Positions 4,138-34,218 of a DNA stretch of 35,073 nucleotides are shown here, piece after piece. Position 1 is the stretch's first letter, and each line of letters begins with the position of its first letter. A program made the translations under genes and the position numbers. The notes below the pieces were generated by a model. That model ran no database searches, was not told where the DNA came from, and saw only the letters and a list, made by a program, of their open reading frames with translations. The DNA is from an uncultured Verrucomicrobiota bacterium (GTDB lineage: Bacteria > Verrucomicrobiota > Verrucomicrobiia > Limisphaerales > UBA9464), in NCBI GenBank assembly GCA_903907925.1, contig CAIVQB010000140.1:1-35073 (forward strand), given 5' to 3'.

Positions 4138-4184
4138 ATTTCCCAAGAAAGACATGGGAAAAACCGACCTCCATTGGGTGGAGG

Positions 4185-4670
4185 CGCCTCTCACCTATGG
4201 ACTGCGGCGGGAAGCGGAGCGCCACGCCGCTGTGGAGCGGGATTATAACTTCGAACGGAGGATCCTTCCATGACTCCGTCTCGACCCCGGACCACCCGAC
4301 ACCGCCCGTTTTGGAACGCCCGGTTGTTCATCCGAATGCCGGTCGAGCGGTGCACCGGCGGTCTCTCTCGACGCCCGGGTTCAATAGCGGTGTCGACGCT
4401 TCGCTCTGCCACCGCACTCCACAAAAAAGCCGCCTCTCCTCTATGGACTGCGGCGGGAAGCGGAGCGCCACGCCGCTGTGGCGCGGGATTGTAACTTCGA
4501 ACAGAGGATCCTTCCACGACTCCGTCTCAACCCCGGACCAACCGACACCGCCTGTTTTGGAACGCCCGGTCGTTCATCCGAATGCCGGTCGAGCGATGCA
4601 CCGGCGGTCTTTCTCTACGCCCGGGCTCGATAGCGGTGTCGACGCTTCGCTCTGCCCCCGCACTCCATGG
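4185..4670. repeat. Tandem ~246 bp intergenic repeat, two copies
   Basis: The 575 nt gap between the convergent TSUP and dnaG genes (4138-4712) holds no convincing gene. It contains two direct copies, 4185-4430 and about 4431-4670, aligned end to end with a 246 bp period. By eye they differ at about 18 positions, mostly transitions. Each copy begins with a segment reading MDCGGKRSATPLW on the plus strand (ATG at 4197 and 4443), rich in short inverted repeats such as AGCGG/CCGCT. Each contains GAACGCCCGGT and TGTCGACGCTTCGCTCTGCC. I recall this MDCGGKRSATPL-coding segment as a dispersed repeat in Verrucomicrobia genomes; that is memory, not a search. Reading frames across it are interrupted or overlap dnaG antisense, so it is not called as coding. 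Confidence 0.85.
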
Positions 4671-17592: not shown

Positions 17593-19860
17593 CTACGACC
17601 GACCAGCCGGGGCGATCCGGACCGCGCAGAACTTGTAGCTCGGCTGACGAGAATGGGGATCGAAACTGCCGGCGGTCAGGCGATTCACCCCGTCGTAGTG
17701 CATCGGCAGGAAGACCTGTCCGGGTTGAACGGTCCGGGTGATGAAGGCGTTGACTTCGAGAGTGCCTCGCCGGGAGGTCACACTGACTTTTCCATGCGCC
17801 TGGATGCCCAGCCGCCGGGCGTCGTCAGGGTGGACTTCGACATAGGCCTCCGTCGGGTAGAGCTTGCGCAGGATGGCGGACTTTGCGGTCCGGGTGTTGG
17901 TATGCCATTGCGCCGAGGAACCGCGGCCGGTCAGGAGGACGAAGGGATAGGCGTCATCCGTGGGTTCGGCCACCGGGCGTGGTGGATCGTAAAGAAACCG
18001 GGCCCGGCCATTCGGAGTGTGGAATTGGCCATCCTCGAACAAGCGGCGTTCCACTGCCGGGTCGGATGGCGTTGTGCGGGTGCTGGTATCGACCGTGGGC
18101 GTCTTCCATGGCCACTGGATTCCTCCACAACGGTCGATGTGCTGGTAGTCCTGGATCCCGGTGATGTCGCAGGGTTGCCCGGCGCTGAGCCGCTTGAGGA
18201 TCTGGAACGCCGCTTCGGGTGAGCTCCATTCGGCGAACTGTGGTCCGCGACCCCAGGCGGCGGCGATCAATTGAAAGATGGCAAAGTCGCTCAACGCCAC
18301 GCCCGGTGCCCGCCGCACTTTTTTGACCCGACCGATCCGGCGTTCGCTGTTGATCAGGGTTCCCTCTTTTTCACCCCAACCGGCCGCGGGAAGAATCAGG
18401 TCTGCTCGCTTCGCCGTGTCAGTGGTGTGGTAAAGATCCTGCACTACCAGGAAGTCGAGCTTGTCGAGCAGGCGATCGAACCGGCCACCATCGATCCATG
18501 AATGCGAAGAATTGGTGGCGATCACCCAGAGCCCCCGGATGGCGCCGCTTTCGATTCCGTCGATGATCTGGTCGTAGGCCCATGACGGACGGTCCGGTAC
18601 AAGCGCCGGATCCATGTTCAACGCTGTCGCCACCTGCTGGCGATGGTTCGCATCGACAAAATCGCGTCCGCCCAGCAGCGACGTGGCGTTCGCGTACAAT
18701 CGCGAACCCATCGCGTTGCACTGGCCGGTGATGGAGTTCGCACCGGTTCCGGGCCGGCCGATGTTGCCCGTCATCAGCGCCAGATTGATCAACGCCTGGG
18801 CGGTCCGGGTGGATTCGTGCCCCTGGTTCACGCCCATCGTCCACCAAAAGCTCACCCGGCGGCCGCGCGCAATCAGCTCCACGCAGCGATCGAAATCTGC
18901 CCGGGTGATCCGGGCGGCCGCGCAGGCACGCTCCGGCGTGAACTCCGCGACAAAGGTGGCGAACGCCTCGAATCCCTCGGTGTGAGCTTCGATGAATGAT
19001 CGGTCCAACGCCCCACGGGAAATCAGCGCCGCGGCGATCCCGTAGAGCAAGGTGAGGTCCGACTTGGGAGCGAGGGCGAGATGCAACGTTGCGTTGACCG
19101 CGGTCTCGGTTCGGCGCGGATCCAGCACGATGATTTCCGGATGATGCGGATTGCGCAGGACCCGTTGCCAGAGGATCGGATGAGCGATGCACGGATTCGC
19201 GCCGACGAAGACGAGCACATCCGACTCTTCGAAATCGGCGTAGGAATAGGGCGGCGCATCAAATCCGAAACTCTGTTTGTAGGCGACGTGCGCAGTCGCC
19301 ATGCACTGACGGGTGTTGGAATCCCCGTGCAATCCGCCCATGCCGAACTTGAACAACGCCCCCAGCAGGGCCATTTCCTCGGTGCAGATCTGTCCGGTGC
19401 TGAGGTAGGCGATGGAATGAAGTCCGTGGCGTTCCTGGACCCCGCGCATCCGCGTCACGAAGATGTCCATGGCCACCGACCACGACACCGGCTCCATCCG
19501 GCCGGTGGTCGGATTTCGCAGCAACGGTGTGGTGGCGCGATCGGGTGAATCCAGCGGCGTCAGCACTTCCCAGCCCTTGGGACACGCCATTCCCAGATTC
19601 ACCGGATAGTTGGGATCGGCACTGACATTGATTGCCTCACCGTTCTTGAGGTGGATGTTCAACCCGCAGCCGGTCGAGCAATAGCCACAAACCGCGGTGG
19701 TGACGGCGTCAGGTTTAAGCCGGGCCGGGACCTGGCCCAGTCCGAACGCGCCCGGAGTTCGGACCAGATCTGACGTCAACGGACCGGACCACTGCCGAAA
19801 CAGCGTGTTTTCCGGACGATCCGCGGGAACCGGGGGCGGCTGGGAGGAATCGGAGTTCAT
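17593..19860 (-). CDS. nasA: Assimilatory nitrate reductase catalytic subunit (molybdopterin, NasA/NarB-type)
   Basis: This 755-residue member of the DMSO-reductase superfamily reduces nitrate to nitrite. The N-terminal [4Fe-4S] motif is Cys58, Cys61, Cys65 and Cys93 (CGYCSTGC...GMACPKG). [19 protein letters not shown] holds the Cys expected to ligate Mo in Nap/Nas enzymes. VNQGHES and [18 protein letters not shown] are bis-MGD contacts, and a C-terminal molydop-binding domain ([17 protein letters not shown]) is present. There is no Tat signal, so it is cytoplasmic, and no Klebsiella-type C-terminal [2Fe-2S] domain. A ~50-residue N-terminal extension precedes the iron-sulfur motif. Its ATG overlaps the stop of the DmsB-DmsC-like gene (ATGA), which points to a tight complex with it. 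Last gene of the nitrate operon. Another oxyanion substrate is possible but unlikely next to nirA. Confidence 0.9.
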
Positions 19861-21593
19861 GGCATGCCCGGCATACGGTTGGGCGATGCCGTGCGGAAGA
19901 ACAGCCAACGTTCGAGGATTTCCCCGCCCAAACAGACCAGTGCCATCATCGGAACCAGTGCGGATCCGGAAGCATCGGTCACCGCCGGACCTTGGCCCGT
20001 CAGCATTCCCAGGGGAACCACGATGCCGGCGAGGCCCCCAATCAACAGCCGGATCGCGTGGGGAATGCGGAATGTTCCGGAAAGAAACTCGACCGTTCGC
20101 CGCGATTCATCGGGATGGAGATCGCTCCCGCCCGCACCGCTCGCCGCGCGCAGTTCGAGTGCCAGTTTGATCCCGTTCGCCACGATGACGCCCGTCAGCA
20201 ACGCCGATTGAAGGAGCGCCGAAATCGGCCCGAGCAGAACCAGCCCGAGCCAGCAGCCCAGACTGATCATCGTTCCAAAGAAACGCGGTGCGGTGACGGC
20301 GTCCCGCCAGCACCAGCGTCCGGTGTCGGAATAGACCCGCGTTTGGGCGAACACCGCTGCCACCGCCAGACCCCACAACGGAATGCTCCACAGCGCGGGC
20401 GGCAGTTGAATGAGAGAACGTCCGACGGGCGTTTCTGAGAGAATCCAGTACGGAAAGGTTCTTAGTCCGATCAACGCCGCTGCCGTCGCCGCCGCTCCGG
20501 CGAATGCGTTCAGCGCGATGGCTTCCCGGCTCAGCCAACTCGTCCGCCAGCCGAGCCAGACCCGCCATGCTTTTCGAGGTTGCCCGAGGTGAGCCACGCT
20601 TCCGGCCAAACCCGCGGCGAGGAAGGCCATCGCGATCACCGCCAACCGGAAGATCCCGGCATCGGAATTCGAGCCGGGCGTGCCTCGGGTCCACGCCATT
20701 CCTGCAGCCAGTGCGAGTCCACCGATGCCCGCCTGGGTGCCAACGAGTAGAAGGATCAACGGCCAATGCGCCGGCTGGGGCTTGGGTTGCGAATGGTCGG
20801 CCGCCCGCAACGTGGCCTCCGGTGCCCGGGTGATGTACCGAGTGGTCGGAAGGGTGATCGACGGATCGGGCGAATCCGGAAGCCATTTTCCGGGCTTCGA
20901 GGGCGTGCGGAATTCCACCCGCACCCAGGCGGTGGAAACCGTCGTGACCCGGATGGCCTCGTTGGGGCAGGCCTGGACGCAGGCGGGTGCTTCACCTTCG
21001 GCGAGCCGGCCATGACAGAGATCGCATTTCCGGACGATGCCCCGCCGCGCCGAATAGCGCGGCACTTCGTAGGGACATTTCATCACACAATAGCTGCAGC
21101 CGATGCATTGATCGTCGAGATGCCGGACGATTCCGGTCGAGGGATCCTTTTCGTAGGCCAGCACCGGGCATCCGAGGAGGCAGGCCGGTTCGACGCAATG
21201 ATGACAGGCGGTGGTGACGGTGCGTTGAACGGACAGAACCTGGTTGCCGGGCGCAGATCCGGCCGCGCGCGGAATGACGGTTTCGCCGAACAACACCCCG
21301 ACATCCCGCCAGCTCTCGTCATCGTCCAGTCCGTTCAACGCATGACAGGCCGTGACGCAGCCCTTGCATCCGGAACACCGGTCGAGGTCGACTTCGAAGG
21401 CGTATTGCTCACCCGGGCGCGGGGCGGTGAGTGGGATCAGGTCGCGATAGTGTCGTTCGAGCAGCGGCACCTCGGAGTCATGGCGTCGTGAAAATGAATC
21501 GACGGCCGTCAACCGGCGCTGCTCCGCGAGCAGGGTATCGATCAGCGTGTCGACGGATTCCCCGGCGGGAGTTGGGAGATGGGGAGGGATCAT
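19857..21593 (-). CDS. DmsB-DmsC-type fusion: four-cluster ferredoxin plus membrane anchor
   Basis: This 578-residue fusion has a DmsB-like N-terminal half with sixteen cysteines in four groups: 73/76/79/83, 130/133/138/142, 163/166/169/173 and 190/193/205/209. This is enough for four [4Fe-4S] clusters. From about residue 275 on there are roughly eight hydrophobic helices resembling the DmsC/NrfD-like quinol-oxidising anchor, for example [20 protein letters not shown] and [20 protein letters not shown]. An N-terminal ~70-residue extension has the phrase [21 protein letters not shown]. With no Tat signal, the iron-sulfur half should face the cytoplasm and pass electrons from membrane quinol to NasA, whose gene it overlaps by 4 nt. 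In E. coli the corresponding B and C subunits are separate proteins. The role is inferred from domains and gene order. Confidence 0.9.
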
Positions 21594-21637
21594 TCCCGTT
21601 CCGGGGTGGCCGTGGCTGGAGCGAACGCTGCGAATTC

Positions 21638-23428
21638 TCAGGCTTCCTGGGTGAACAATTCCTGAAGGCGTCCAATTTCATGACGGACGGTGAACGTTTG
21701 AAACGATTCGCCGAAGTTTCGGTGCTTGAGATAACCGCGCAGGATTTTCTCCACCGTTTCCTTCAACTCATGAAGGGCGACGCCCTGGAACAACTGTCGG
21801 CCGATGGCCTGGCGATCGCCGAATCCGCCCCCGACAAAGATGTGATAGCCCTCGCGACTTTCCCCGCCGACCTTGACGGTGGCGCCGAGAAGACCGAGGT
21901 CGCCCATGTAATGCTGGGCGCAGGAATTCGGGCAGCCGGTGAGGTGGATGTTGACCGGCTGATCCAGTTGGATGCGGGCGTCGAGATACTTCATCAAGTC
22001 CAGCGCGTGACCCTTGGTGTTCGAACTGGCGAATTTGCAATACGCGTTGCCGGTGCAGGCGATGAATCCGCTTTTGAGATTCGATTGCCGCCAGTCGAAA
22101 CCCATCTTGAGCACCGCCTTCTTCACTGTCTCGACATAGGCGTCCGGCACATTGGGAATAATGAAATTCTGCCAGACCGTCATGCGGATCTCGCCCGTGC
22201 CGTACAACTCGGAGATCTCCGCCAACCGCCGAAGCTGGCGTGCGGTGACCTGGCCCACCGGCACCGCCACGCCGATCCAGTTCAATCCGCGCTGCCGTTG
22301 CGGATAGACGCCCACCTGCGGATGCGGATCTTCGGCAGGAGCTGTCACCGGAGAAGTAGTGGCCCCAGCGGCAGGAACGCGCAGGAGAGCGTGACCCAGC
22401 AGCGTTTCCGTCTCGGCGAGGTAACGGTCGAGGGTCCAGTGTTCGAGCAGGTGCTTGAGCCGCGCCTTCTTTCGATCGGTGCGGTTGCCGTGGTTCACGT
22501 AGACCCGCAGCAGCGCGCTCGCCACCTTCAACGCCTCTGATGGCCGGACCAAAACGCCGAGATCGCGGGCGAAGGCCTTGTGTCCGGTGGCACCACCGAG
22601 CGCGACCCGAAAATACACACCGGGTTCAACCTCATTGGAAATGATGTCGCCAACACGCGGGCCCCCGGGTGCCGTCGTCGCGGAGGCCGTGGCCAGGACC
22701 CGGACCGCCTTGAATCCAATGTCATTGGTGTCTTCGACGGTCGGAATCTTTCCGCCGCCGTGGAAGGCGATGTTGAATTTCCGCGGGAGATCGTAGAACT
22801 CGCGGTGATTAAGGATGAGCTGGGCGAGCCCGAGCGTGAGCGGGAGGGTCTCGATCAATTCGGCCGGATCCACGCCACTGGTCGGATCGCAGGTCAGGTT
22901 GCGAACATTGTCGGCGCCGGCACCACGGGTGTGGAGGCCCGTCGCCTGCACGCGGCGGAGGAATTCCACGGTGTCGCGTGGCCGGATCAACCGCATCTGG
23001 AGATTGGCCCGGGTGGTGATCTGGATGTAGCCGGTCGTCAACTGCTCGGCCACGGCGGCGAGTTCGCGCAGTTGGAAGCTGAACAATTGTCCACCCGGAA
23101 TGCGGAGCCGCGCCATGTAGCCCTCGTGGTTGGGCGCGAGATAGAACAGGCCGTTCCATTTGAATCGGAACGTGTTTTCCCGGTCCGGCGCCTGGTCGGC
23201 TGCCGCGTGCTGGAGCAGGAGCGGGTAGGCGTCCAGCGGATGCAACTCCCGCTTGATCCGTTCCTCGGGAATCAGGTCGTCGAGTGACACTGTGGCGGGT
23301 GTGGCAGAGGGGGGTGGCACGATGTCGCCAAAGGTGAAGCCGCGGTTCCGCAGTCCAGCGAACCAGCCGTCGAGATAGGCGCCCTGTTCGGGATTGAGCT
23401 TTTGTCCGGCGATCTCGGTGAGGGTCAT
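21638..23428 (-). CDS. nirA: Ferredoxin-type nitrite reductase NirA (siroheme, [4Fe-4S])
   Basis: This 596-residue siroheme enzyme carries out six-electron reduction of nitrite to ammonium in the cytoplasm. Two nitrite/sulfite reductase half-domain repeats are visible: FSFQLRELAAVAEQLTTGYI in the first half and VTARQLRRLAEISELYGTGE in the second. The cluster-siroheme cysteines appear as CTGNAYC (C-x5-C) and TGCPNSC (C-x3-C). The arginine/lysine-rich anion-binding pattern ITTRANLQMRLI is present. The ATG at 23428 is preferred; a TTG at 23458 would only add ten residues. It lies 30 nt after the CysJ-like flavoprotein gene, its likely electron donor, and 44 nt before the iron-sulfur/anchor gene. 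Sulfite reductase is the main alternative, but the nitrate operon context argues for nitrite. Confidence 0.92.
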   Translation of the reverse strand: MTLTEIAGQKLNPEQGAYLDGWFAGLRNRGFTFGDIVPPPSATPATVSLDDLIPEERIKRELHPLDAYPLLLQHAAADQAPDRENTFRFKWNGLFYLAPNHEGYMARLRIPGGQLFSFQLRELAAVAEQLTTGYIQITTRANLQMRLIRPRDTVEFLRRVQATGLHTRGAGADNVRNLTCDPTSGVDPAELIETLPLTLGLAQLILNHREFYDLPRKFNIAFHGGGKIPTVEDTNDIGFKAVRVLATASATTAPGGPRVGDIISNEVEPGVYFRVALGGATGHKAFARDLGVLVRPSEALKVASALLRVYVNHGNRTDRKKARLKHLLEHWTLDRYLAETETLLGHALLRVPAAGATTSPVTAPAEDPHPQVGVYPQRQRGLNWIGVAVPVGQVTARQLRRLAEISELYGTGEIRMTVWQNFIIPNVPDAYVETVKKAVLKMGFDWRQSNLKSGFIACTGNAYCKFASSNTKGHALDLMKYLDARIQLDQPVNIHLTGCPNSCAQHYMGDLGLLGATVKVGGESREGYHIFVGGGFGDRQAIGRQLFQGVALHELKETVEKILRGYLKHRNFGESFQTFTVRHEIGRLQELFTQEA

Positions 23429-23458
23429 GGGGATGATTCCGGTGAGGTTGCGATCCAA

Positions 23459-25258
23459 TCAATAGACATCGCGTTGATACCGCTTGGCGGACTTGAGCCC
23501 GGCCACGTATTCGGCGGCCTGGTCGGCGGTGACGCCGCCCGCCGTTTCGATCAATCGATGCAGCGCGCCATCGACGTCTTTGGCCATGCGCTTGGCGTCG
23601 CCGCAGACGTACACATGCGCGCCACGCTCCAACCACTGCCACAACTCCGCACCGTTTTCGCGCATGCGATCCTGCACATAGATCTTCGCCGCCTGATCCC
23701 GGCTGAAGGCTAGGTCCAGGCGGGTGAGAAATCCGTCCGCATGCAGCGGCACGATTTCATCCTCGTACAGAAAATCGGTGCTCCGCCGTTGATCGCCGAA
23801 AAACAACCAGTTCGGTCCGGTCGCTCCCATGGCCCGGCGTTCTTCGAGGAAGGCGCGGAAGGGGGCGATCCCGGTTCCAGGTCCGATGAGGATGATGGGC
23901 ACCGATCCGTCGGCGGGGAGACGGAAGCCGTGCGACGTCTGGACGAACACCGGCACCGCCGGTTCATCGAGAACGACGCGATCGGCGAGGAACCCGGAAC
24001 ACACACCGGACCGACCCCGTCCGTGCGCCTCGTAACGGACGACGGAGATCGTGAGATGCACCTGGCCGGGATGGGCCTTGGGTGACGAGGAAATCGAGTA
24101 GAGCCGCGGGGGAAGCTTGCGCAGCGAGGCCGTGAATTCAGCGGGCGTGAATCCCGCACCCTGGCAGGCTTGAAGGATGTCGAGCACGTCGCGGCCGAAG
24201 GTCCACCGATCGAGTTCCACCTTTTGTTCAGGGGCCAACAATTTCAGCAAAGCGTCATTCGCTGATCGACGCGCGGCTTCCTTCAGCAACGGGGGTGGCA
24301 CCGCGGTGACGGTCAGGTGATGCAACAGGGCATCGCGAATCGGGATCGGGATCTCTCCACCGGCGGGATGCGGAACCGTTTCCGCGCCCGTGAACCGAAG
24401 CTGCGACAACACCTCGTCGACGAGCTTCGGGCAATTGGACGGGACCACACCCAGCGCGTCGCCAACGTCGTAACTCAACCCGCTGCCTTCGAGGGAGAAT
24501 TCGAAATGGCGGGTGTCCTTGTCCGAGCCGGTTCGATTCAAACGGCGATTGGCCTGGAGGCGGGACTCAAACGGACGGTTGCGGGAATAGCCCGAAGCGG
24601 TTTCAGCGACTGCGGGTTTCGGCGGGTCAGTGGCCGACGCAGCGGTCGCCGGTGCGGGCGTGGCGGTGGTGACGGATGTTTCAGCTTCCAGGGCGGTCCA
24701 CAGGGATTCGATCCAGGCCTTGGCGGTGGCCTCGTAGTCGACGTCGCATTCGCCGCGGGCGACGACGCGTTTGCCGCCGAGCTGTTCGAAGCGTTGATCC
24801 AACTTTTTGGAGGCGCCACAGAAGTCGGCGTAGTTGCGGTCACCGAGACCCAGCACGGCGAACGACAGGTGCTCCAAGCGTGCGGCGGTCTCCGTCGAAA
24901 TCCGGCTCCAGAAGGCGGTCGCGTTGTCGGGCGGATCACCATCGCCCCAGGTGCTGGTGACGATGATGCAGCGGGATTCGCGGGCAAGATCCTCGGCAGT
25001 GACCGCGTTGAGTTCCTTGAGCGTCGCCTGAAATCCCCGCCGTCCGGCCTCCTTGGAAATGGATTTCGCAAGACCGCCCGCCGAACCGGTCTGACTGCCG
25101 AACGCCACCAGCAGTGGGATCTGCGGGCGCGGAGCCGCCGCCGGTCCCGGGCCGGAACCCGAAACGTCGGCGAGGATGCCCGCCAGATAGCCGTTCAGCC
25201 ACGCGCGTTGTTCGGCGGTGAACGGGGCGTTTTCCGGAAGGCTGGGAACCGCGGGCAT
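23459..25258 (-). CDS. CysJ-like NADPH-dependent diflavin reductase
   Basis: This 599-residue protein has CysJ/P450-reductase architecture. It starts with a short helix (EQRAWLNGYLAGILA), then a flavodoxin/FMN domain with FGSQTGSAGGLA, TSTWGDGDPPDNA and LGLGDRNYADFCG. An FAD domain follows with RLYSISSSPKAHPG. The NADPH domain has IGPGTGIAPFRAFLEER and VYVCGDAKRMAKDVD, and the protein ends in the typical C-terminal aromatic (DVY). In sulfite reductase CysJ passes NADPH electrons to the hemoprotein CysI; here the gene sits 30 nt before nirA, so it is probably NirA's private donor in place of ferredoxin. The ATG at 25258 is chosen; GTG 25279 is an alternative. Family assignment is firm, partner assignment inferred. 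Confidence 0.92.
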   Translation of the reverse strand: MPAVPSLPENAPFTAEQRAWLNGYLAGILADVSGSGPGPAAAPRPQIPLLVAFGSQTGSAGGLAKSISKEAGRRGFQATLKELNAVTAEDLARESRCIIVTSTWGDGDPPDNATAFWSRISTETAARLEHLSFAVLGLGDRNYADFCGASKKLDQRFEQLGGKRVVARGECDVDYEATAKAWIESLWTALEAETSVTTATPAPATAASATDPPKPAVAETASGYSRNRPFESRLQANRRLNRTGSDKDTRHFEFSLEGSGLSYDVGDALGVVPSNCPKLVDEVLSQLRFTGAETVPHPAGGEIPIPIRDALLHHLTVTAVPPPLLKEAARRSANDALLKLLAPEQKVELDRWTFGRDVLDILQACQGAGFTPAEFTASLRKLPPRLYSISSSPKAHPGQVHLTISVVRYEAHGRGRSGVCSGFLADRVVLDEPAVPVFVQTSHGFRLPADGSVPIILIGPGTGIAPFRAFLEERRAMGATGPNWLFFGDQRRSTDFLYEDEIVPLHADGFLTRLDLAFSRDQAAKIYVQDRMRENGAELWQWLERGAHVYVCGDAKRMAKDVDGALHRLIETAGGVTADQAAEYVAGLKSAKRYQRDVY

Positions 25259-25282
25259 GATGCGTGTGTAGAGGCCCACCGC

Positions 25283-26806
25283 TTAGAAACTGAACTGGGT
25301 CTGGAGATAAATGTAGTCGGCGTCCTTGGATCCGATGGCGGAGAGGGAGCTCGATACATAACTGCCGCGGAAGAAATGGCAGTAGGCGGCTTCGATCGAG
25401 ATATACGGCGAAAGCGCCCAGGTGGCGACGAGATCGGTTTCGGCTCCGAGCGCGCTGCTGTAGGTGGGATTGATGCCGTAGCCGTTGCCTGGAGTGGCGG
25501 CCAGCCCGCCACGCCGCGCGCCGGTGACGGTGTAGAAACTGTCGTGCGTGTCCGCGAGCCACATCAGATGCGCTTCGGCCAGCAACGTGAGCCGGGCCAT
25601 CGGCTTCAGGCTGCTGAAGAAGCGCAGATCGTGCAGATTCTGCAGCGAGGCGAAGTCGGCAAACCCGTAGAACTTGTGATTGGTCGGGAAGAGGTTTTCG
25701 AAGGTCTGATGCTTGCCGTCGTTGGGATTCGAGTCACCGGAACCGAAGCAGTATTCGAGGCCGACCTTCGGAGTGAAGGCCACTTCCTGCCAGGTGTAGC
25801 TGGCATTGGCCACGGCCATGTAGGCCTGCTGTTCCAAGCCCCGGGCCGAAGCGGTCGCGATGGCCGGATCGTTGTAGTGACCGAACTGGTACGCGCCATC
25901 GACGAAGAAGTTGATGTTGCCCCAGTCGTTGGTCGCCGAGACGAAGCGCGCACCCAGGGTGTAGATGTCGCGGGCGGAGGTGACGGTGAACGGACTGCGC
26001 GGGCCCGGGCTGGTGGCCTGGGGGCTGGCGTTGCGGGACAGAAAATAGAAGTCCGAGACCAGCGAAGGGATCTTGCGCGATGTCAGATAGGCACCGGAGA
26101 AGTAATCGTAGTCGTTGGCCGTGTTGAAATTATTGTCATCGGGCAGAACGATCCGGGAGGTGAAGAAATCGCCGGAAAACCAGGAATTCTGCCAGCGGAG
26201 TTTGGCGGCATCGAAGACCCGGCCGACATTGTTCCAAGCAAAGGCGCCGACGAGGCGTTCCTCACCGTAGCTGAGTTCCTGACGCCCGACCTTGAGTGAG
26301 AGCGGGAATTCCTTGTGATTGCCCAGACCGAGGTAGGCCTGGTGGAGATCGATGGGGCCGTCGGATTCCGGACCAGCGCCGCTGCCGGGCAGGGCACCGG
26401 TGCTGGGGCGCTTGTCATTGGTGCTGGAACTGTTACGGCCCTGGACGAAAGCCTCGAACCATTTGCCGGTGTAGCCGACCCGGATGAGCGTCTTCTGGAG
26501 AAGATAGGAATTGTCGTTCAACACGCCGGGCTTGGCTGAAAAATCAGTCCCGGAACCAGCACCGGTGGCACCACCGTTCTCCTTCATCTCGTAGCGGGCG
26601 CGATATTGGACGCCGAGGTTCCAGGCCGCCATGTAGGGATCATCGGCGCGGAGATAGTCGTTGAGGAACCCCGTCGACGGCCGCAGCGGCGTGTCCAACC
26701 CGAGATCCAGGGGTGGCGCGGCCTGAAGCGAAACCGAAAGCGCGGCGACCGCCGCGATGGCCAGCGCGGCTTTGGGCAGGGTGGGAATGGGTGAGGGTGG
26801 GTTCAT
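25283..26806 (-). CDS. Outer-membrane porin, alginate-export (AlgE-like) family
   Basis: This 507-residue protein has a clear Sec signal peptide (KAALAIAAVAALSVSLQA, cleavage likely before APPLDL). Then come many alternating aromatic/polar strands typical of a beta-barrel, and a C-terminal strand ending in Phe (YIYLQTQFSF). Phrases such as RYEMKENGG, LHQAYLGL, SLKVGRQELSYGEERLVGAF and WQNSWFSGDFFTSRIVLPDD fit the alginate_exp family, which also covers non-alginate anion porins. It lies between the ABC importer genes and the reductase genes with 24-34 nt spacing, so it most likely lets nitrate or nitrite cross the outer membrane. No alginate genes are nearby. The substrate is inferred. Confidence 0.88.
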   Translation of the reverse strand: MNPPSPIPTLPKAALAIAAVAALSVSLQAAPPLDLGLDTPLRPSTGFLNDYLRADDPYMAAWNLGVQYRARYEMKENGGATGAGSGTDFSAKPGVLNDNSYLLQKTLIRVGYTGKWFEAFVQGRNSSSTNDKRPSTGALPGSGAGPESDGPIDLHQAYLGLGNHKEFPLSLKVGRQELSYGEERLVGAFAWNNVGRVFDAAKLRWQNSWFSGDFFTSRIVLPDDNNFNTANDYDYFSGAYLTSRKIPSLVSDFYFLSRNASPQATSPGPRSPFTVTSARDIYTLGARFVSATNDWGNINFFVDGAYQFGHYNDPAIATASARGLEQQAYMAVANASYTWQEVAFTPKVGLEYCFGSGDSNPNDGKHQTFENLFPTNHKFYGFADFASLQNLHDLRFFSSLKPMARLTLLAEAHLMWLADTHDSFYTVTGARRGGLAATPGNGYGINPTYSSALGAETDLVATWALSPYISIEAAYCHFFRGSYVSSSLSAIGSKDADYIYLQTQFSF

Positions 26807-26840: not shown

Positions 26841-27677
26841 TCAGGCGGAAACGGGGATGGACTCGGCAGGCGCAGTCTGGTGCGCCGGCATCGGCTTGCG
26901 TTGATGGGCGCGAACTTCGAGGAACTCGATGAGAGTGGCGCGGAGCCGGTGGTATTCCGGATGTTCCATCAGGGTCTTGCGGTCACGCGGACGGGGAAGT
27001 TTCACCTCGAGGATTTCGCCGATGCCGGCCTCGGGTCCGTCGGTCATGCAGACCACCCGATCGGACAGATACAACGCCTCGTCGACGTCGTGGGTCACCA
27101 TGACGGTGGTGATCTGGTTCCGGCGCCAGAGATTGATGAGCACCTGCTGAAGTTCGTAGCGGGTCAGGGAATCGAGCATCCCGAATGGCTCGTCGAGCAG
27201 CAGCATCTTGGGCTTGAGGGCGAAGGCCCGGGCGATTCCGACCCGTTGACGCATGCCCTGCGACAGTTCGGCCGGCCGTTTGTCCATGAAATCGGCGAGC
27301 CCCACCACGGTGAGGTAGTATTCAGCGATCTGTTCCCGTTCCAGCCGGGTGGCGGTGAAGAACACCTGGTTGATGCCCAGCATCACGTTCTCCCGTGCGG
27401 TCATCCACGGAAGAAGCGAGGGCGACTGAAAGACGATGCCGCGGTCCGGTCCCGGGCCGCTCAGTTCGCGTCCGGCAAGGATGATGCCGCCGTCCCTGAT
27501 CTCGGTGAGGCCGGCGATCATCATCAATACCGTCGATTTGCCGCAGCCTGAATGGCCGATGATGGTGACGAATTCGCCCTTGGCGATTTTCAGGTTAAAG
27601 TCCTGAACGATCGTCTGTGGGCCGCGGGCGGACGCATAGACCTTCTTCAGGTTGAACAACTCGAGATGCGCACTCAC
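26841..27677 (-). CDS. Nitrate-type ABC transporter ATP-binding protein (NrtD-like)
   Basis: This 278-residue ABC ATPase of the nitrate/sulfonate/taurine class shows Walker [10 protein letters not shown] (41-49), a Q-loop region around [18 protein letters not shown], signature [14 protein letters not shown] (Gln in place of the usual Gly), Walker [12 protein letters not shown], and switch His in [11 protein letters not shown]. The GTG start overlaps the stop of the preceding ATPase gene (GTGA), so the two are probably made in equal amounts and form a heterodimer on the cytoplasmic face of NrtB. There is no fused substrate-binding domain. It is followed 34 nt later by the porin gene. Confidence 0.92.
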
Positions 27678-28594
27678 AGCTCGACCTCCACGGTTTCCGT
27701 CTTCAATTCGCTCGGACGCCGGGCGCGTCGGCCCGATCCGAAGAACCGTTGAGAATGGTGGGTGATGTCCTCGGGTTCGACATCGGGGAGCACCAGCGAG
27801 CGGGAGAGCGTGGTGCGGTGCCGCGACGTCGCCTTGAGCAGGTATCCGATGACTTCCTGGCGGATCTGCTTGAAATCGTAACTCTGATGCAGCGTCCGGC
27901 GGTCGCGGGGTTGGGGCAGGATCACGGGAATGCTGGGACCGAGCGTGGCGCGCGGTCCGGCGGTCAGCGGGATGACCCGGTCGGCGAGCAGGATGGCCTC
28001 GTCGGGATCATTGGTGATGAGCACCACCGTCTGCTTTTCGGCGAGGCGGATGCGGGATATCTCGTCCTGCAGCGTCGCCCGTGTGAGGGCATCCAGCGCG
28101 CCGAGCGGTTCGTCGAGCAGGAGCACCTTGGGCTGCATGGACAGGGTCCGGGCGACGCTCACCCGTTGGCGCATGCCGCCCGAAAGTTCGTGCGGTCGTT
28201 TGTCCCGCGCCGGGGTCAGATTCACCATGGCCACGAACCGGTCGGTGTGCTGGCGACGTTCGGCGTCGCTCAGTTTGGGAAACACCTGATCGACGGCGAG
28301 TGCGACATTTTCATACACCGTCAGCCACGGCAGCAGGCTGTAGTTTTGAAACACCAGTCCGCGATCGGGCCCGGGTCCGGGAGTGTCCTGTCCGTCGAAC
28401 AACACCTTCCCGGATTCCGGCCGGAGCAGTCCGGCGAGAATCGACATCAACGTCGTCTTGCCGGAACCCGAGTAGCCGACGATGGCGACGAACTCGCCCT
28501 CCTCGATCTCGAGATCGATATCGGCGAGCACCTCGGTGCGGCGGCTGGCCGGGCCGTATCCCATCGAAACGCCCTGGAGTTGGAGAAAAGCCAT
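27674..28594 (-). CDS. Nitrate-type ABC transporter ATP-binding protein (NrtC/NrtD-like)
   Basis: This 306-residue ABC ATPase has Walker [10 protein letters not shown] (40-48), signature [15 protein letters not shown], Walker [13 protein letters not shown], and [15 protein letters not shown], where Asn-Asp replaces the usual His of the switch region (H-loop). This degenerate switch residue suggests an asymmetric heterodimer in which the partner (26841-27677) completes one active site. In cyanobacteria NrtC carries an extra NrtA-like C-terminal domain; here only a ~40-residue tail ([18 protein letters not shown]) follows the ATPase. The gene lies 57 nt after the permease gene. Nitrate is assigned from operon context; bicarbonate or cyanate use cannot be excluded by sequence. 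Confidence 0.92.
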
Positions 28595-28651: not shown

Positions 28652-29446
28652 TCACGCGGTCTTGAACCGGCGTTCGATCACGCTCATCAGGCGGTCGAGG
28701 ATGAAGCCGGTGCCGCCGATGGTGAGGATGCAGAGGATGATCTGCTCGTAGACCAGCGCGTTGTATTGCTGCCACAGGAAGCCGCCGACACCGGGCCGGC
28801 CGGTCAACATTTCGGCGGCGACAATTACCAGCCAGGCGATGCCGAGGCTGAGACGGAATCCGGTGAACATGTAGGGCAGCGTCGCCGGAATCATCACCCG
28901 GGTGAGCGTCTTCCAACGGGACAACTTGAGAACGCGGGCGACGTTGAGGTAGTCGGTCGGAATGGCGCGGACGCCGACCGCTGTGTTGAGCACCGTGGGC
29001 CACATTGAACACAGCGCGATCGTGAACAGCGCGGCGATTTCGGTGATGTTGATGCCCTTGATCTTGGCGAACAGCACCATGCCGAGCGGCAGCCAGGCGA
29101 GGGGCGAAACGGGACGGAGGATCTGGATGATCGGATCGAAGATCTTGGTGAAGGTGGGCGAGAGGCCGAGACAGAATCCGATCGGCGTGCCGAGGATCAG
29201 GGCGATGGCGTAGCCCTTGGCGACGAGTCCGAGCGAGAGGAGCGTGAAGCGGAGAATGCCCTGGTCGAGTTCGCCGCGTTTGCCCCACGGATCGAGCACG
29301 TAAGGCTTCGACTCATGCCAGGTCTTGGCCGGATCCGGGAGGTCGCCCGACCACGTGTGGCTCGAAATGTGCCACAGCAGGAGAATGAAAATCCCGCCGA
29401 GCACCGGGAGAAGAATGAAATCAAAACGATGCCACTGGTTTTTCAT
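28652..29446 (-). CDS. nrtB: Nitrate ABC transporter permease NrtB-like
   Basis: This 264-residue inner-membrane permease has about six hydrophobic segments. Its BPD_transp_1 core contains the EAA-type loop AEMLTGRPGVGGFLWQQYN, which is very close to the NrtB/CmpB consensus, and LRPVSPLAWLPLGMVLFAKI in the central region. A long periplasmic stretch after TM1 (DLPDPAKTWHESKPYV) is typical of the NrtB subfamily. The ATG at 29446 is preceded by CTTCCCCACCC, with no Shine-Dalgarno motif. The 131 nt upstream gap (29447-29577), after the signal-less binding-protein gene, is the longest inside the operon and shows no obvious promoter or hairpin. Forms the channel for the two ATPases that follow. Confidence 0.92.
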   Translation of the reverse strand: MKNQWHRFDFILLPVLGGIFILLLWHISSHTWSGDLPDPAKTWHESKPYVLDPWGKRGELDQGILRFTLLSLGLVAKGYAIALILGTPIGFCLGLSPTFTKIFDPIIQILRPVSPLAWLPLGMVLFAKIKGINITEIAALFTIALCSMWPTVLNTAVGVRAIPTDYLNVARVLKLSRWKTLTRVMIPATLPYMFTGFRLSLGIAWLVIVAAEMLTGRPGVGGFLWQQYNALVYEQIILCILTIGGTGFILDRLMSVIERRFKTA

Positions 29447-29577
29447 GGGTGGGGAAGAGATTCAAAGGCCGGGCCCCGAGCCGACCGGAAGGGTGAAACT
29501 TCCACTGCGTCCGATCCATCGAAGCAGGGATCGCTCTGGCAGATGTCGGTCGAGACCGGAAAGCGGGGGTGCATGAG

Positions 29578-30843
29578 TCAATCGCGGGGTGATTTGATGG
29601 CGAATGATTGCGCGTAGGCCTCGGGTTGGGACGGATCGAATTCGGCTCCGCCCAGCAGTCGCACGACGGGTCGTGTCGACGGCAGGCTGAGCACCCCGGC
29701 CTCCGCCATCGCCTCATGATAGAGATCGGTTCGCAGGACTGAGGCGGTGATTCCGGCGTAGTTTGGGATCCCGCCGATGAATCCCCAGCGCCGGTACTGG
29801 CTGAGAAACCACAGGCACTCGACGGCATCGGGAAGATTGGTCAGGCCTGACGAGAAAACCGGCGCAGAACCGGGCCCGGAGCGTCGTCCGTCGCCGAATT
29901 CGAATCCGGGTTGAATCCGGGCGCGAACCGTTTCGGCCGGACAATCCAGATGTTCCGGACGCGCCAGCAGTGCCGCCAGTTCGGCGGCGTTGACCGGGTC
30001 GTCGCACCATTTTCCGGAGGCATGCAGGGCGCGGAGGACGGCCTTGACCGTCCGGGGATTCTGTTCGGCGAAGTCGGCCTGAAAGGCGCAGACCTTTTCC
30101 GGATGATTGGGCCAGAGTGCGTCGGAGGTGATGGCGGTGAATCCGGTGCTCTGGAGTTGGGCGATCGCGTTCCACGGTTCGCCGGCGCAAAAGCCATCGA
30201 GCCGTCCACCGGCCATGTTGCGAACCATCATCGGCGGCGGAATGGTGATCAACGCGACATCCCGGTCGGGATCGATCCCGCCCTCGGCGAGCCAGTATCG
30301 CAGCCACATCGAGTGGGTTCCCGGTGGAAGCGTCTGGGCGAAGACGAGCGGCCGGCCGGCATCGCGCCGGTCCATCGTCGTGCGGTATAGGGCCCGGGCC
30401 TCAGTGCCGACTTTTCCCGCGTGCGCGCGGGCCAGCGTGATGGCCTGTCCGTTGCGCGACAAAACCCAGGGAATGACGAGCGGCGTGCATTCAGGCCCGA
30501 GAATGCCGAGTCGCGAGGCGAGCGGCATGCTGTAGAGCATGTGGGAGGCGTGGACGGATCCGTTGGCCAGCGCATCCCGCGAAGCCGTCCAGCTCGAGAC
30601 CTTCGCCGCCTGCGCGTTCAACCCTTCGGCGGCAAAGAATCCCTTCTCGACCGCCACCAGCAACGGTGCCGCGTCGGTCAGCGGCAGGAACCCGAGCCGC
30701 AGGTCCTTCACCTCGGGATCCCCGATCACCGGCGAAGCCGCCCCACTGCCCTGCAGGGCACGTTCCGCCGGAACGGACGCTCCGGAAGGGCTGTCGGTAT
30801 GGGCCATGCGATGATGGAGGGGATGGGGTGCGGGCAGGGTCAT
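29578..30843 (-). CDS. NrtA-like binding protein without signal peptide
   Basis: This 421-residue protein (ATG 30843; ATG 30807 also possible) is closely similar along its length to the Tat-exported NrtA-type protein encoded just before it: GFLPLTDAAPLLVAVEKGFF, ITIPPPMMVRNMAGG, LDGFCAGEPWNAIA and NHPEKVCAFQADF all have counterparts there. It starts with a polar, proline-rich stretch and shows no Sec, lipoprotein or Tat signal, so it should remain in the cytoplasm. Possible roles are a nitrate-sensing regulatory subunit equivalent to the C-terminal NrtA-like domain of cyanobacterial NrtC, or a NasS-like sensor. The gene begins 20 nt after the nrtA stop, consistent with tandem duplication within the operon. 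Function is inferred. Confidence 0.85.
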   Translation of the reverse strand: MTLPAPHPLHHRMAHTDSPSGASVPAERALQGSGAASPVIGDPEVKDLRLGFLPLTDAAPLLVAVEKGFFAAEGLNAQAAKVSSWTASRDALANGSVHASHMLYSMPLASRLGILGPECTPLVIPWVLSRNGQAITLARAHAGKVGTEARALYRTTMDRRDAGRPLVFAQTLPPGTHSMWLRYWLAEGGIDPDRDVALITIPPPMMVRNMAGGRLDGFCAGEPWNAIAQLQSTGFTAITSDALWPNHPEKVCAFQADFAEQNPRTVKAVLRALHASGKWCDDPVNAAELAALLARPEHLDCPAETVRARIQPGFEFGDGRRSGPGSAPVFSSGLTNLPDAVECLWFLSQYRRWGFIGGIPNYAGITASVLRTDLYHEAMAEAGVLSLPSTRPVVRLLGGAEFDPSQPEAYAQSFAIKSPRD

Positions 30844-30863
30844 GTCGGGAGTCCGGAGAAGGA

Positions 30864-32150
30864 TCAGCCCTTCAGCGAATTCACCGGGAACGCCTTGGCA
30901 TAGGCCTCGGGCTGCGCGGGATCGAACACGCCATCGAAAAGTGTTTCCGGTTTGGAATCCGCCCCGCCGTGGGCGTAGCCGAGTTCTTTCATCGCCTCCT
31001 CGTAGAGATCGGTACGCAGCACCTGCGCGGCGACGCCCTGATAATCGGGTGCGCCGGTGACCATGCCCCAGCGCCGGAATTGCGTGAGCCACCAGACGCC
31101 GAATTTTAGTTGGGGATAGTTACAGTTCCGGATACTGAAGATCATCGGGTTCGGATCCTTGTAGGTGCGTCCGTCGCCGAGGTTGTAGTCGCCCAGCAGC
31201 CGCCCGAGGATGATCTCCTTCTGGCAGTTGATATAGTTCGGCTTGCTGACGATCTCGCACTGCTCCGGCCGGTTCTCCATTTTGTCGAGCCACACGCTGG
31301 CCTCGTTCAGACCCTTGAGCACGGCCTTCACGGTCTTTGGATTCTTCTCGGCGAATTCCTTGGTGAAGGCGCAGACCTTTTCCGGGTGATCCTTCCACAT
31401 CGCCTGAGTGGTGATGGCGGTGTAGCCGATGTTGTCGGCGACCGCGCGGGCGTTCCACGGTTCACCGACGCAGAAGCCATCCATCTTCCCGACCTTCATG
31501 TTGGAGATCATCTGGGGCGGCGGGATGGTGATGAGGGAGATGTCGCGATCGGGATGAACGCCGCCGGCGGCCAGCCAGTAGCGGAGCCACATGGCGTGGG
31601 TGCCGGGCGGGAAGGTCATCGCGAAGGAGAGCGGTTCACCGAGTCCCTTGGCCTTCTTCACCATCGGCAACAGCGCCTTGGCGTCCTCCTTGACCAGTCC
31701 TTTGAACTCGGTCTTGAGGGTGATGGCCTGGCCGTTGCGATTGGCGATCCAGGGAATGACCATCGGCTTTTTCGGCGAGCCGAGCAGTCCCATGCTGGAG
31801 GCGAAGGGCATGCCCAGCAGCATGTGGGTGAATTGATTGTCGCCGTTGGAGAGCGAATCGCGGATGGCGGCCCAGTTGGCGCCCTTCGCGACAGTCACGT
31901 TCAGGCCGTGGTTCTTGAAGAATCCCTTTTCGGCGGCGATCACGAAGGGCGAGCAGTCGGTCAGCGCGATGATGCCGCAACGGCAGGCCGGTGTTTCCGG
32001 GGAATCATCGGCGAAGAGACTTCCGGACCAGCCGGTGGGAAGGCTGGCCAGCAGGGTGGCAGCGGCGGAACGCTTGAGGAAGCGTCGACGACTGGCGTCA
32101 GGCAGGGAGAGAACAGGTTTCACGTTCAATGGCAGGATGGGGTTGGGCAC
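30864..32150 (-). CDS. nrtA: Tat-exported nitrate-binding protein NrtA-like
   Basis: This ~428-residue CmpA/NrtA-family solute-binding protein has a twin-arginine signal, SRRRFLKRSAAATLLASLPTG, an exact S-R-R-x-F-L-K motif, so it is exported folded to the periplasm. The mature part has CGIIALTDCSPFVIAAEKGFF at its head (read in two parts), ITIPPPQMISNMKVGKMDGF, CVGEPWNARA and DHPEKVCAFTKEFAEKNPKT, all typical of the nitrate/bicarbonate-binding family. The start is uncertain: GTG 32150, GTG 32123 and TTG 32159 are all in frame and no ATG precedes the Tat motif. With any of them the gene overlaps the end of the NasS-like gene. It should deliver nitrate to NrtB. Bicarbonate (CmpA) is excluded only by context. 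Confidence 0.92.
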   Translation of the reverse strand: MPNPILPLNVKPVLSLPDASRRRFLKRSAAATLLASLPTGWSGSLFADDSPETPACRCGIIALTDCSPFVIAAEKGFFKNHGLNVTVAKGANWAAIRDSLSNGDNQFTHMLLGMPFASSMGLLGSPKKPMVIPWIANRNGQAITLKTEFKGLVKEDAKALLPMVKKAKGLGEPLSFAMTFPPGTHAMWLRYWLAAGGVHPDRDISLITIPPPQMISNMKVGKMDGFCVGEPWNARAVADNIGYTAITTQAMWKDHPEKVCAFTKEFAEKNPKTVKAVLKGLNEASVWLDKMENRPEQCEIVSKPNYINCQKEIILGRLLGDYNLGDGRTYKDPNPMIFSIRNCNYPQLKFGVWWLTQFRRWGMVTGAPDYQGVAAQVLRTDLYEEAMKELGYAHGGADSKPETLFDGVFDPAQPEAYAKAFPVNSLKG

Positions 32151-33195
32151 TGAGGGCAAGCGCCTGCCGGTGGCAGTCGCTGCGAAAAATCTGGGCCAGT
32201 CGGACTGGCGAAAACCGGCTGCGAATGTCGGCGTCCACCAGGTGTCCGGCGATCCACGCCGCAGTGTCCGCGCTGGGCTCGTTCACGCCGGGTCCGGAGA
32301 AAAGACTCAGGCCACCCGGCAGCGCGGGGAACCCGAGCCCGCGTTCCACCGGTCCGGACAGGCCCCGCCGGATGATCTCCGGCGTTAGGCCGACGTGACG
32401 GCGCTCTGCCAGCAGCAGCGCGAGCTCGCTGTGATTTGACACCTTGGAACACCAGGCACCGGCATCGAGAAGCGCGGCCAGCAGGGCGATGTGTTCCTGT
32501 GGACGACGGGCCGCAAAATCCGCCCGGGCCACCAGAACCTTCTCCGGATGCCGCGGAGCGATGGAACCGCTCGTTGCGGCGATCCAACCCTGGCCGTCGG
32601 CAACCGCCAGACTGTTCCAAGGTTCGCCGGAACAAAAACCGTCGAGATGACCCGCCGCCAGATTCGCGAGCATCTGCGGGGGCGGCACCACCACGATGCG
32701 CACCTCCTGATCGACGCCCGGTCCGGCCGAGTTGAGCCAAGTCCGCAACAGATAGGAGTGCGAGGAATGCGCGGACACCGTGCCGAAGGTCAGCACCTTG
32801 CGATTCCGCACCGCATGAATATGGCTGCGCAGCGTGGCGGCGTCGCGCACTCCGGCGTCCGCCAATCCCTTGCTGAGAGTAATGGCGTTGCCCTCTAGAT
32901 TCAGGACGAGACCAGTGATCGTTTCGGTCGGGACACAATTGTGGCCCGCCGCAAGGACCAGCGGAAAGGCGCAGGGCGCGTGCGCGGCGTCGAGTTCGCC
33001 CTGGGCTAGTTTGTCACGGACGGTGGCCCAGCCGAGTTCACGACTCAGCCGCACGTGGACCCCGTATCGTTCGAAGTCGCCATGCGCCTGTGCCGCCACC
33101 AACGGGGCGCAGTCGTTCAACGGCACAAACCCCAGCCGAATCGGTCCGCCCGTGGTGCGGGCAATCGTCGGAAGAGTGGGTGCGGTCGTCGTCAA
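32098..33195 (-). CDS. NasS-like cytoplasmic nitrate/nitrite sensor
   Basis: This 365-residue NrtA/CmpA-family protein has no signal peptide. The phrases LGFVPLNDCAPLVAAQ, LSRELGWATVRDKLAQGELDAAHAPC (in two parts), VLNLEGNAITLS, VVVPPPQMLANLAAGHLDGF and HPEKVLVARADFA match the NasS branch rather than periplasmic NrtA. In Paracoccus and Azotobacter NasS holds the ANTAR-type antiterminator NasT inactive until nitrate or nitrite binds. No nasT is seen here. It is the first gene of the 11-gene nitrate operon, divergent from a LysR gene. The start is TTG at 33195, the only NTG codon between an upstream in-frame TAG and the conserved domain. A weak start would keep sensor levels low; that is inference. 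Confidence 0.85.
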   Translation of the reverse strand: MTTTAPTLPTIARTTGGPIRLGFVPLNDCAPLVAAQAHGDFERYGVHVRLSRELGWATVRDKLAQGELDAAHAPCAFPLVLAAGHNCVPTETITGLVLNLEGNAITLSKGLADAGVRDAATLRSHIHAVRNRKVLTFGTVSAHSSHSYLLRTWLNSAGPGVDQEVRIVVVPPPQMLANLAAGHLDGFCSGEPWNSLAVADGQGWIAATSGSIAPRHPEKVLVARADFAARRPQEHIALLAALLDAGAWCSKVSNHSELALLLAERRHVGLTPEIIRRGLSGPVERGLGFPALPGGLSLFSGPGVNEPSADTAAWIAGHLVDADIRSRFSPVRLAQIFRSDCHRQALALSAQPHPAIERETCSLPA

Positions 33196-33269
33196 CGAAA
33201 CGCCAGTAAGCCGCCCGGATGCCGAATTCCCAAAGTTGGCCGAATGAGTGCTCTTCTAAATCCAACTGA

Positions 33270-33296
33270 TTTCAATGAAACAGCCTCATTCATGAA
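33270..33296. promoter_or_regulatory. Candidate LysR binding site in divergent nitrate promoter
   Basis: TTTCAATGAAA (33270-33280) is a perfect inverted repeat with one central base, and TTCATGAA (33289-33296) is a second palindrome with related half-sites that overlaps the LysR start codon. They lie in or at the edge of the 96 nt between the LysR ATG (33292) and the nitrate operon's TTG start (33195), where LysR proteins usually bind to control both directions. Assignment is by position and symmetry only. Confidence 0.4.
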
Positions 33297-34218
33297 AGGT
33301 CCGCTCGACAGCCGGCAGTTGCAGGCCTTCGTCATCCTTGCCCGGACGGGCAGTTTCACGCACACCGCGCGCGAACTCTTCCTCACCCAAAGCGCGGTCA
33401 GTCACTCGATGAAGGCGTTGGAAAGCGACATTGGTTGTCGTCTTTTGGACAGGGTGGGCAAGAAGGTGATGCTGACCCAGGCGGGTGAACATCTCCTGAA
33501 ACACGCGCAGGTGGTGTTGCGCGAAATGCTTGCGGCGCGCGATGGAATCGAGCATTTGGGCAAGTGGGGACGCGGGCGATTGAGGATCGGCACTACCGCG
33601 TCGATTTGCCAGGTGCTGCTGCCGCCGGTGTTGCGGGAGTTCAAGGAGAGTTTCCCTCAGAGCATGATCCAGGTGGAGCCGGGTGATACCGGCGAACTTG
33701 TTGTGGGACTCGAACGGCAGCGGATGGACCTCGCTGTCGCGCTGCAGTTGACCGCGGACGAGCGGTTCGAGTTTCTGCCGTTGTTCACCGATCAACTCGT
33801 GTTCCTCACTTCACCGCTTCACGGCTGGGCGCGCGCCGGGACGGTACCGCGCGCGGAAATCGCCAAGCAGAATCTCATCATCTATCGGAAGTCGTCCCAC
33901 ACCTTCCGGTTGGTGGACGAGTATTTCCGGAAGGAAGACATCGTGCTCAACACGGTCATCGAACTGGGCAGCATGGAGGCGATCAAGGAAATGGTGAAGC
34001 TGGGGCTGGGCGTCAGCATCATGGCCCCGTGGATCGCCCAGCAGGAGATCCGCGATGGATCGCTGGTGGCGCTGCCGCTCGGCCGCCGCCAGTTGAAACG
34101 CGACTGGGGTGTCCTGCACTGGCGCGGCCGCCGCATGACCCTCGCCGAGGAGACCTTCGTCGGTCTCTGCCGCTCCGCCTCCGAAAACCTCATGCGCACC
34201 CTCGACGGCACGGAGTAG
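33292..34218 (+). CDS. LysR family transcriptional regulator
   Basis: This 308-residue LysR-type regulator has an N-terminal winged helix-turn-helix in the first ~60 residues (LQAFVILARTGSFTHTAREL, then LTQSAVSHSMKALE) and a linker helix. The LysR effector domain follows (RGRLRIGTTASICQVLLPPV, DLAVAL, GLGVSIMAPWIA). The ATG at 33292 is preferred. It gives the usual 5-8 residues before the first helix and leaves 96 nt for a divergent promoter, while the in-frame ATG at 33244 would leave only 48 nt. Divergence from the nitrate operon makes it the likely activator of that operon, comparable in role to cyanobacterial NtcB; the inducer, perhaps nitrite or a nitrogen signal, is not known. Confidence 0.92.
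   Translation: MKGPLDSRQLQAFVILARTGSFTHTARELFLTQSAVSHSMKALESDIGCRLLDRVGKKVMLTQAGEHLLKHAQVVLREMLAARDGIEHLGKWGRGRLRIGTTASICQVLLPPVLREFKESFPQSMIQVEPGDTGELVVGLERQRMDLAVALQLTADERFEFLPLFTDQLVFLTSPLHGWARAGTVPRAEIAKQNLIIYRKSSHTFRLVDEYFRKEDIVLNTVIELGSMEAIKEMVKLGLGVSIMAPWIAQQEIRDGSLVALPLGRRQLKRDWGVLHWRGRRMTLAEETFVGLCRSASENLMRTLDGTE

Follow-up and report, generated by a model that had tools for sequence, protein, structure and literature searches.

Three NrtA-family proteins in one nitrate operon of an uncultured verrucomicrobial bacterium: an exported binding protein and two predicted cytoplasmic relatives of different ancestry

How nitrate is sensed in bacteria that have neither NasT nor a fused NrtC domain is, to our knowledge, not settled. 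Signal-less relatives of the nitrate-binding protein NrtA are already known as sensors, namely NasS (accessible part of PMC3795266). In cyanobacteria, truncation of the regulatory domain of NrtC, which has a putative nitrate site, makes uptake insensitive to ammonium (accessible part of PMC6603209). In CmpC, the change H409Q, at the position equivalent to H196 of NrtA, was required for complementation by an evolved BCT1 fusion (accessible part of PMC11349869), and the title of PDB entry 9UAI describes a crystal structure of the CmpC domain with nitrate present. Here we describe an operon that encodes three NrtA-family proteins, A1, A2 and A3, in a stretch of 35,073 nucleotides (the window; contig CAIVQB010000140.1, assembly GCA_903907925.1) from an uncultured Verrucomicrobiota bacterium (Limisphaerales; UBA9464). 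Related genomes are given G-numbers and loci L-numbers.

The locus most likely holds two NrtA-family lineages that do three jobs in one operon: A1 would inform a LysR-type regulator, A2 would feed the transporter, and A3 would gauge cytoplasmic nitrate at the transporter. We put the probability of this joint reading at roughly 0.48, just short of even. A2 would be exported by the twin-arginine translocation (Tat) pathway and deliver nitrate to NrtB and two ATPases. A1, as a free-standing homologue of the NrtC/CmpC C-terminal domain, would remain in the cytoplasm, bind nitrate (or nitrite) and pass its ligand state to the divergently encoded LysR, which would act via a conserved T-N11-A dyad. 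A3, probably an old NrtA paralogue whose pocket outlasted its Tat signal, would sit at the transporter's inner face and gauge cytoplasmic nitrate there, in place of the domain that in cyanobacteria is part of NrtC itself. As a fused NrtC is seen in none of 52 A1 operons, a separate protein could take over this role, though the fusion is rare in other operons as well. The features concerned are the following.

32098..33195, minus strand: A1, signal-less predicted nitrate-binding protein of the NrtC/CmpC-C-terminal-domain type, 365 amino acids (PF13379, PDB sequence search, tree); start TTG as listed, exact start uncertain
30864..32159, minus strand: A2, predicted Tat-exported NrtA with the motif SRRRFLK (PF13379; 296 bits to 2G29); start codon uncertain, the listed TTG start giving an overlap with the 3' end of A1
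29578..30843, minus strand: A3, signal-less NrtA paralogue, 421 amino acids (PF13379); start supported by congeners, its ATG lying 20 bp past the A2 stop
33292..34218, plus strand: lysR, divergent LysR-type regulator (PF00126 and PF03466); an alternative in-frame ATG lies upstream at 33244
33275..33289, no strand: dyad ATGA-N7-TCAT (T-N11-A, LysR-type box) between A1 and lysR

The three genes lie head to tail on the minus strand within 29578-33195, and each product gives a complete match to PF13379 (NMT1_2), with E values of 3e-72 for A1, 4.9e-89 for A2 and 3.5e-82 for A3. The original prediction of three NrtA-family proteins at this place is thereby confirmed, and genome-wide these were the only PF13379 matches found (the genome is 96% complete). 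A3 is 48% identical to A2 over 376 amino acids, a similarity along the length that had also been foreseen, and A1 is 29% identical to A2 over 331 amino acids.

The N-terminus of A2 carries SRRRFLK, the exact Tat motif claimed for it, followed by a Tat-type h-region. A motif rule for Tat-like signals was positive in 49 of 59 A2 sequences, in none of 31 A1 sequences and in none of ten A3 sequences, so that the predicted lack of a signal in the first and third proteins stands. Ten A2 sequences were missed by the rule: L215 stops short at the edge of its contig, L064 is apparently frame-shifted, a twin arginine (RR) is present by eye in L221, L085 and L119, the signals of L133, L050, L051 and L060 look Sec-like, and L052 is the tenth. 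The best 15-residue hydropathy windows were 0.27-0.99 in A3 leaders (five of the nine A3 frames listed, those with a value for the leader proper), and nine A2 signals gave 0.93-2.11; since these ranges overlap, hydropathy alone is no clear divider. The proposed set, an exported nitrate-binding protein and two others predicted to be cytoplasmic, is upheld.

A corrected upstream start that would restore a signal to A3, which the original prediction had named as a refutation, is not supported by congeners. The open frame of G006 and G007 extends no more than 6 and 4 codons, respectively, upstream of the homologous MTF start; the first ATG of G004 and G555 is no more than about 10 residues away from strand 1. 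The A3 N-termini are of four kinds, none of which has an RR motif with an h-region: one is shared by the window, G001, G006 and G007, one by G003 and G005, one, with almost no leader, by G004 and G555, and another is found in G145. The leader of G003 and G005 contains LPAGWSGGVF, which resembles the end of the signal in the G003 A2 (LPVGWSGRVF), and this match was equalled in 0 of 100,000 shuffles. Such a relic of a signal end in two congeners indicates that A3 descends from a Tat-exported NrtA whose signal was lost, and its lack of an export signal makes A3 an NrtA-derived protein rather than an exported NrtA.

The ancestry of A1 is different. Its best PDB sequence matches are the C-terminal domains of NrtC/CmpC (193 bits, versus 133 for NrtA). 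The 31 A1 sequences and four NrtC/CmpC-type domains form one side of a branch with a Shimodaira-Hasegawa-like approximate likelihood ratio test (SH-aLRT) value of 93, and FastTree on 217 sequences likewise placed A1 with these C-terminal domains (support 97). The nitrate residues of NrtA we take to be W102, Q155, H196 and K269. Of these, H196 is confirmed in the accessible part of PMC11349869. At the four positions the A1 of the window has W, N, H and K, a set identical to that of the CmpC C-terminal domain. Gln155 is replaced in all 31 A1 sequences (29 with N, two with D); N also occurs there in the four NrtC/CmpC-type domains, in CmpA, in 4 of 51 A2 sequences and in one of five NasT-neighbour sequences. 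The ligand-site comparison, which had been proposed as a check, further shows all four NrtA residues retained in ten of ten A3 sequences and in eight of eight A2 sequences of the genus.

A clade uniting A1 with the NasS sequences L127 and L130, which neighbour NasT and are signal-less by eye, was rejected by the approximately unbiased (AU) test with p = 4.2e-5. No match to an ANTAR (NasT) protein was found in the 96% complete genome. The same search was positive in 2 of 116 genomes of the order, and therefore able to find such proteins, and was silent in 14 control genomes. Next to the two ANTAR genes found in the order (L163 and L164), the NrtA-like gene is not a NasS and has, by eye, a signal of the RR type. 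From the tree, the AU test and the lack of an ANTAR match, A1 is judged not to be a NasS by descent; the first protein, which had been described as NasS-like and signal-less, keeps the second attribute and loses the first.

A divergent LysR gene stands beside A1 in 54 of the 58 A1 sequences with enough upstream DNA; 35 further A1 sequences were left out of this count, as contig or locus ends lay too near. One of the four without LysR in this neighbourhood count is L089, whose lysR was found by the scan for the dyad. In genomes whose single family match is of the A1 type, the divergent LysR is present in 14 of 17 loci and nrtB in none of the 17 stretches. These loci (16 fetched for the purpose plus L226) were hand-picked, some of the genomes are incomplete, and some stretches stop soon after A1 (L271 after 165 bases); G191 (L275), fetched with this set, has an ABC transporter operon and was not counted. 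After A1, L260 and L261 have a formate/nitrite transporter gene and an NIR_SIR gene (in L260 with one unassigned frame between), L269 has a molybdopterin reductase gene, L267 has a nasA relative, and L265 has an NIR_SIR relative further on.

The dyad ATGA-N7-TCAT was first noticed in nine of nine related loci that were aligned. It is present in 34 of 59 A1-lysR regions, compared with 0.13 expected from mononucleotide shuffles; without the nine loci on which the pattern was chosen, it is present in 25 of 50, including L262, L265 and L266. Of the 34 regions, 29 have it at a nearly fixed distance upstream of the codons for a conserved QLQAF-type motif of lysR, either 35 bases (six regions) or 39 bases (23 regions). 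The two spacings differ by 4, and a single reading frame therefore cannot explain both. The arrangement at 33275-33289, a T-N11-A dyad between lysR and its divergent neighbour, has the form of a LysR-type operator, and we regard it as a putative one. No description of an A1-LysR pair or of a signal-less third NrtA was found in the literature searched, which covered few subscription journals. The accessible part of PMC3404531 reports a locus with a lysR (Mfum_140011, named CbbR), a 'nitrate-binding protein' (Mfum_140012), reductase genes and a nasA 'nitrate transporter' (Mfum_140017).

The ten A3 sequences form one clade (SH-aLRT 100) within an NrtA clade of Planctomycetes, Verrucomicrobia and a few others (the PVC NrtA clade), apart from the NasS sequences; the tree comprised 111 sequences, hand-chosen among those fetched, with the truncated A3 of G002 left out. 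Duplication at the level of the genus, with its A2 and A3 as a clade, was rejected (AU p = 8.5e-7). As judged from these trees, A3 is not a recent or local tandem duplicate of A2 in this lineage. The original prediction had the second and third proteins arise by tandem duplication followed by loss of the signal: the relic bears out the loss, and the trees reject a tandem duplication in this lineage. The phylogeny it called for did find the three proteins to be related, with A1 beside the NrtC/CmpC domains and A3 derived from NrtA. The A2 and A3 of G004 and the A2 of G002 group with sequences of the other family in which A3 occurs (support 83 for A2 and 100 for A3), unlike the A1 of G002 and G004, which groups with the genus; this hints that A2 and A3 moved together.

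All seven same-genus genomes have three family matches, the third being truncated in G002. There, the truncated A3 frame (L064, 5535-7155) overlaps pieces of the NIR_SIR and Fer4-DmsC genes, which indicates a deletion or a misassembly. Outside the genus, A3 was recognized in at least three genomes, all of another family (G145, G555 and G569), and A3 profile matches of more than 700 bits were found in at least 5 of 384 genomes of a class sample (the present genome, G003, G005, G007 and G145). Beyond the fetched loci A3 was judged by match scores, with few candidates scored per genome (at most 4-9, depending on the search), so that these counts are lower bounds, and the genome samples overlap. 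Each of the ten A3 genes is a neighbour of nrtB or, in the different operon position of G145, lies between that gene and the first ATPase gene.

A fold model of A3, covering the residues from strand 1 on, has a predicted local distance difference test (pLDDT) score of 94.9 and superposes on NrtA (2G29) with Z = 54.4 and a root-mean-square deviation of 1.5 over 371 aligned residues. It was made from a 57-sequence alignment, an earlier model from eight sequences having been poor (pLDDT 59.8). Ratios of non-synonymous to synonymous substitution (dN/dS, Nei-Gojobori) for A3 are 0.12, 0.09, 0.17 and 0.14 in four congener pairs, with dS above 1 in three of them; by this measure A3 is under purifying selection, which counters its being a pseudogene. 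It evolves faster than A2: between the present genome and G007, A3 is 71% and A2 90% identical.

On the minus strand the gene order is A1, A2, A3, an NrtB-type permease, two ATPases, a porin and assimilatory genes, with lysR diverging from A1. The further features are as follows.

28652..29446, minus strand: NrtB-type permease (TIGR01183, 203 bits, just below the cut-off of 209)
27674..28594, minus strand: first ATPase, without a C-terminal regulatory domain (TIGR01184, 281 bits, below the cut-off of 292)
26841..27677, minus strand: second ATPase (NrtD-type), without a C-terminal domain (TIGR01184, 316 bits, above the cut-off of 292)
25283..26806, minus strand: porin-like protein, Alginate_exp (PF13372, E = 2.3e-59)
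17593..25279, minus strand: assimilatory genes for a CysJ-like flavoprotein, an NIR_SIR reductase, a Fer4-DmsC fusion and a molybdopterin oxidoreductase

The Alginate_exp porin sits between the ABC transporter genes and the reductase genes and is kept in many related operons; it is a candidate outer-membrane nitrate channel. At 21638-25279 an NIR_SIR reductase and a CysJ-like flavoprotein form a pair, as in sulfite reductase. The gene at 19857-21593 adjoins the nitrate reductase gene, and its product joins a ferredoxin-type iron-sulphur protein to a DmsC membrane anchor, which suggests a membrane-linked assimilatory reductase. A scan of the window against Rfam for a leader RNA or riboswitch gave no match, and no sigma-70-like site was found in 29300-33600, a weak indicator for this phylum. 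Elsewhere in the window there is a direct repeat of 240 bases (4182-4421 and 4428-4667, 93% identical, given as 246 bases apart).

Several points weigh against the joint reading of A1 with LysR, A2 with the transporter and A3 as a gauge. The branch that joins A1 to the NrtC C-terminal domains is, at 93, not strongly supported. Similar LysR genes stand directly before A2 without A1 in L085, L090 and L221, so that this LysR does not always need A1, and in the loci of the A1-only genomes other than L260, L261, L265, L267 and L269 nothing nitrate-related was recognized among the downstream frames tested. The dyad is absent from 25 of 59 regions, some of its matches come from relatives that are nearly identical, and within this genus it may fall in an N-terminally extended lysR frame that begins at the ATG at 33244. 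The genome has three PII genes, and PII alone could regulate the transporter; the rarity of A3 means that most relatives manage without it. The observations themselves comprise the sequences, the absence of recognizable signals, ancestry, the checked ligand residues, selection, neighbourhoods and the dyad; from these we infer nitrate binding and the contacts of A1 with LysR and of A3 with the transporter.

Among other explanations, A1 might act on the ABC transporter instead of on LysR, as a trans-acting replacement for the absent NrtC regulatory domain. The NrtC/CmpC C-terminal domains are its closest relatives and both ATPases of the window lack such a domain; a fused NrtC occurs in none of 52 A1 operons, which is weak evidence since the fusion is found in only 1 of 64 other operons. 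However, A1 and its divergent LysR also occur in genomes without a detected A2 and with no nrtB nearby (for example L260, L261, L263-L266 and L269), and we consider action in trans unlikely. Somewhat less probable still is that A3 (or A1) is a NasS-type sensor, in which nitrate binding releases an RNA- or DNA-binding partner. A3 fits the description of NasS in the accessible part of PMC3795266, a signal-less NrtA relative with nitrate residues that is easily misannotated, but the scarcity of ANTAR matches, the empty Rfam scan and the position of the A3 clade all argue otherwise.

The intact pocket residues, the missing signal and the shared operon with the reductase would also suit a protein with no regulatory role that buffers nitrate in the cytoplasm or carries it to the reductase. 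We think this improbable, as A3 adjoins the transporter genes rather than the reductase genes, and we know of no precedent for such a carrier among NrtA relatives. That A3 is a decaying or dispensable duplicate is the least credible of these ideas, and very much so: its rarity, faster divergence and truncation in G002 point that way, but its low dN/dS (0.09-0.17), its conserved pocket and its retention across the genus, as well as by three genomes belonging to a different family, speak against it. We retain the reading in which A1 would serve LysR and A3 the transporter. A wider proposal is more tentative: A1 and LysR might be a transporter-independent nitrate-sensing pair of Verrucomicrobia and some Planctomycetes, made of a freed NrtC-type domain and a DNA-binding activator in parallel to NasS-NasT, and A3 might be a cytoplasmic transporter control that re-evolved, in one genus and a few other genomes, when an exported NrtA lost its signal.

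One operon here offers two candidates for a cytoplasmic nitrate sensor, each with its own ancestry. Found with LysR in many verrucomicrobial genomes, and at loci without nrtB, A1 could be part of a general nitrate switch, and proteins of its type may now be annotated as nitrate ABC transporter binding proteins. A3, with the relic of its signal in two congeners, would record an exported binding protein turning cytoplasmic.

Compared with known systems, A2 has the features of a Tat-exported NrtA, and A2 and A3 share the full-length NMT1_2 fold of NrtA (2G29) and CmpA (2I48), from which A3 differs in having no export signal. The cyanobacterial NrtC/CmpC regulatory domain (PDB 8WM7 and 9UAI) is closest to A1 by sequence, by tree and by its W/N/H/K set, and shares its fold and presumed compartment with A3. 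It is fused to an ATPase, whereas A1 and A3 are separate open reading frames; A1, unlike this domain, has LysR as its partner and is also seen where nrtB is absent from the locus, and A3 descends from NrtA and not from the NrtC/CmpC domain. NasS of Paracoccus, Azotobacter and Pseudomonas is likewise a signal-less NrtA relative with nitrate residues, encoded near assimilatory genes; A3 has all four of these residues, and A1 has three, plus N for Q. Here, however, the search for an ANTAR protein found none, neither A1 nor A3 groups with the NasT-neighbouring NasS sequences, and the A1 locus has a LysR, in contrast to the antiterminator of NasS-NasT. What appears to be new in this operon is the pairing of LysR with an NrtC-type domain that stands alone, together with a second, NrtA-derived copy that is predicted to be cytoplasmic.

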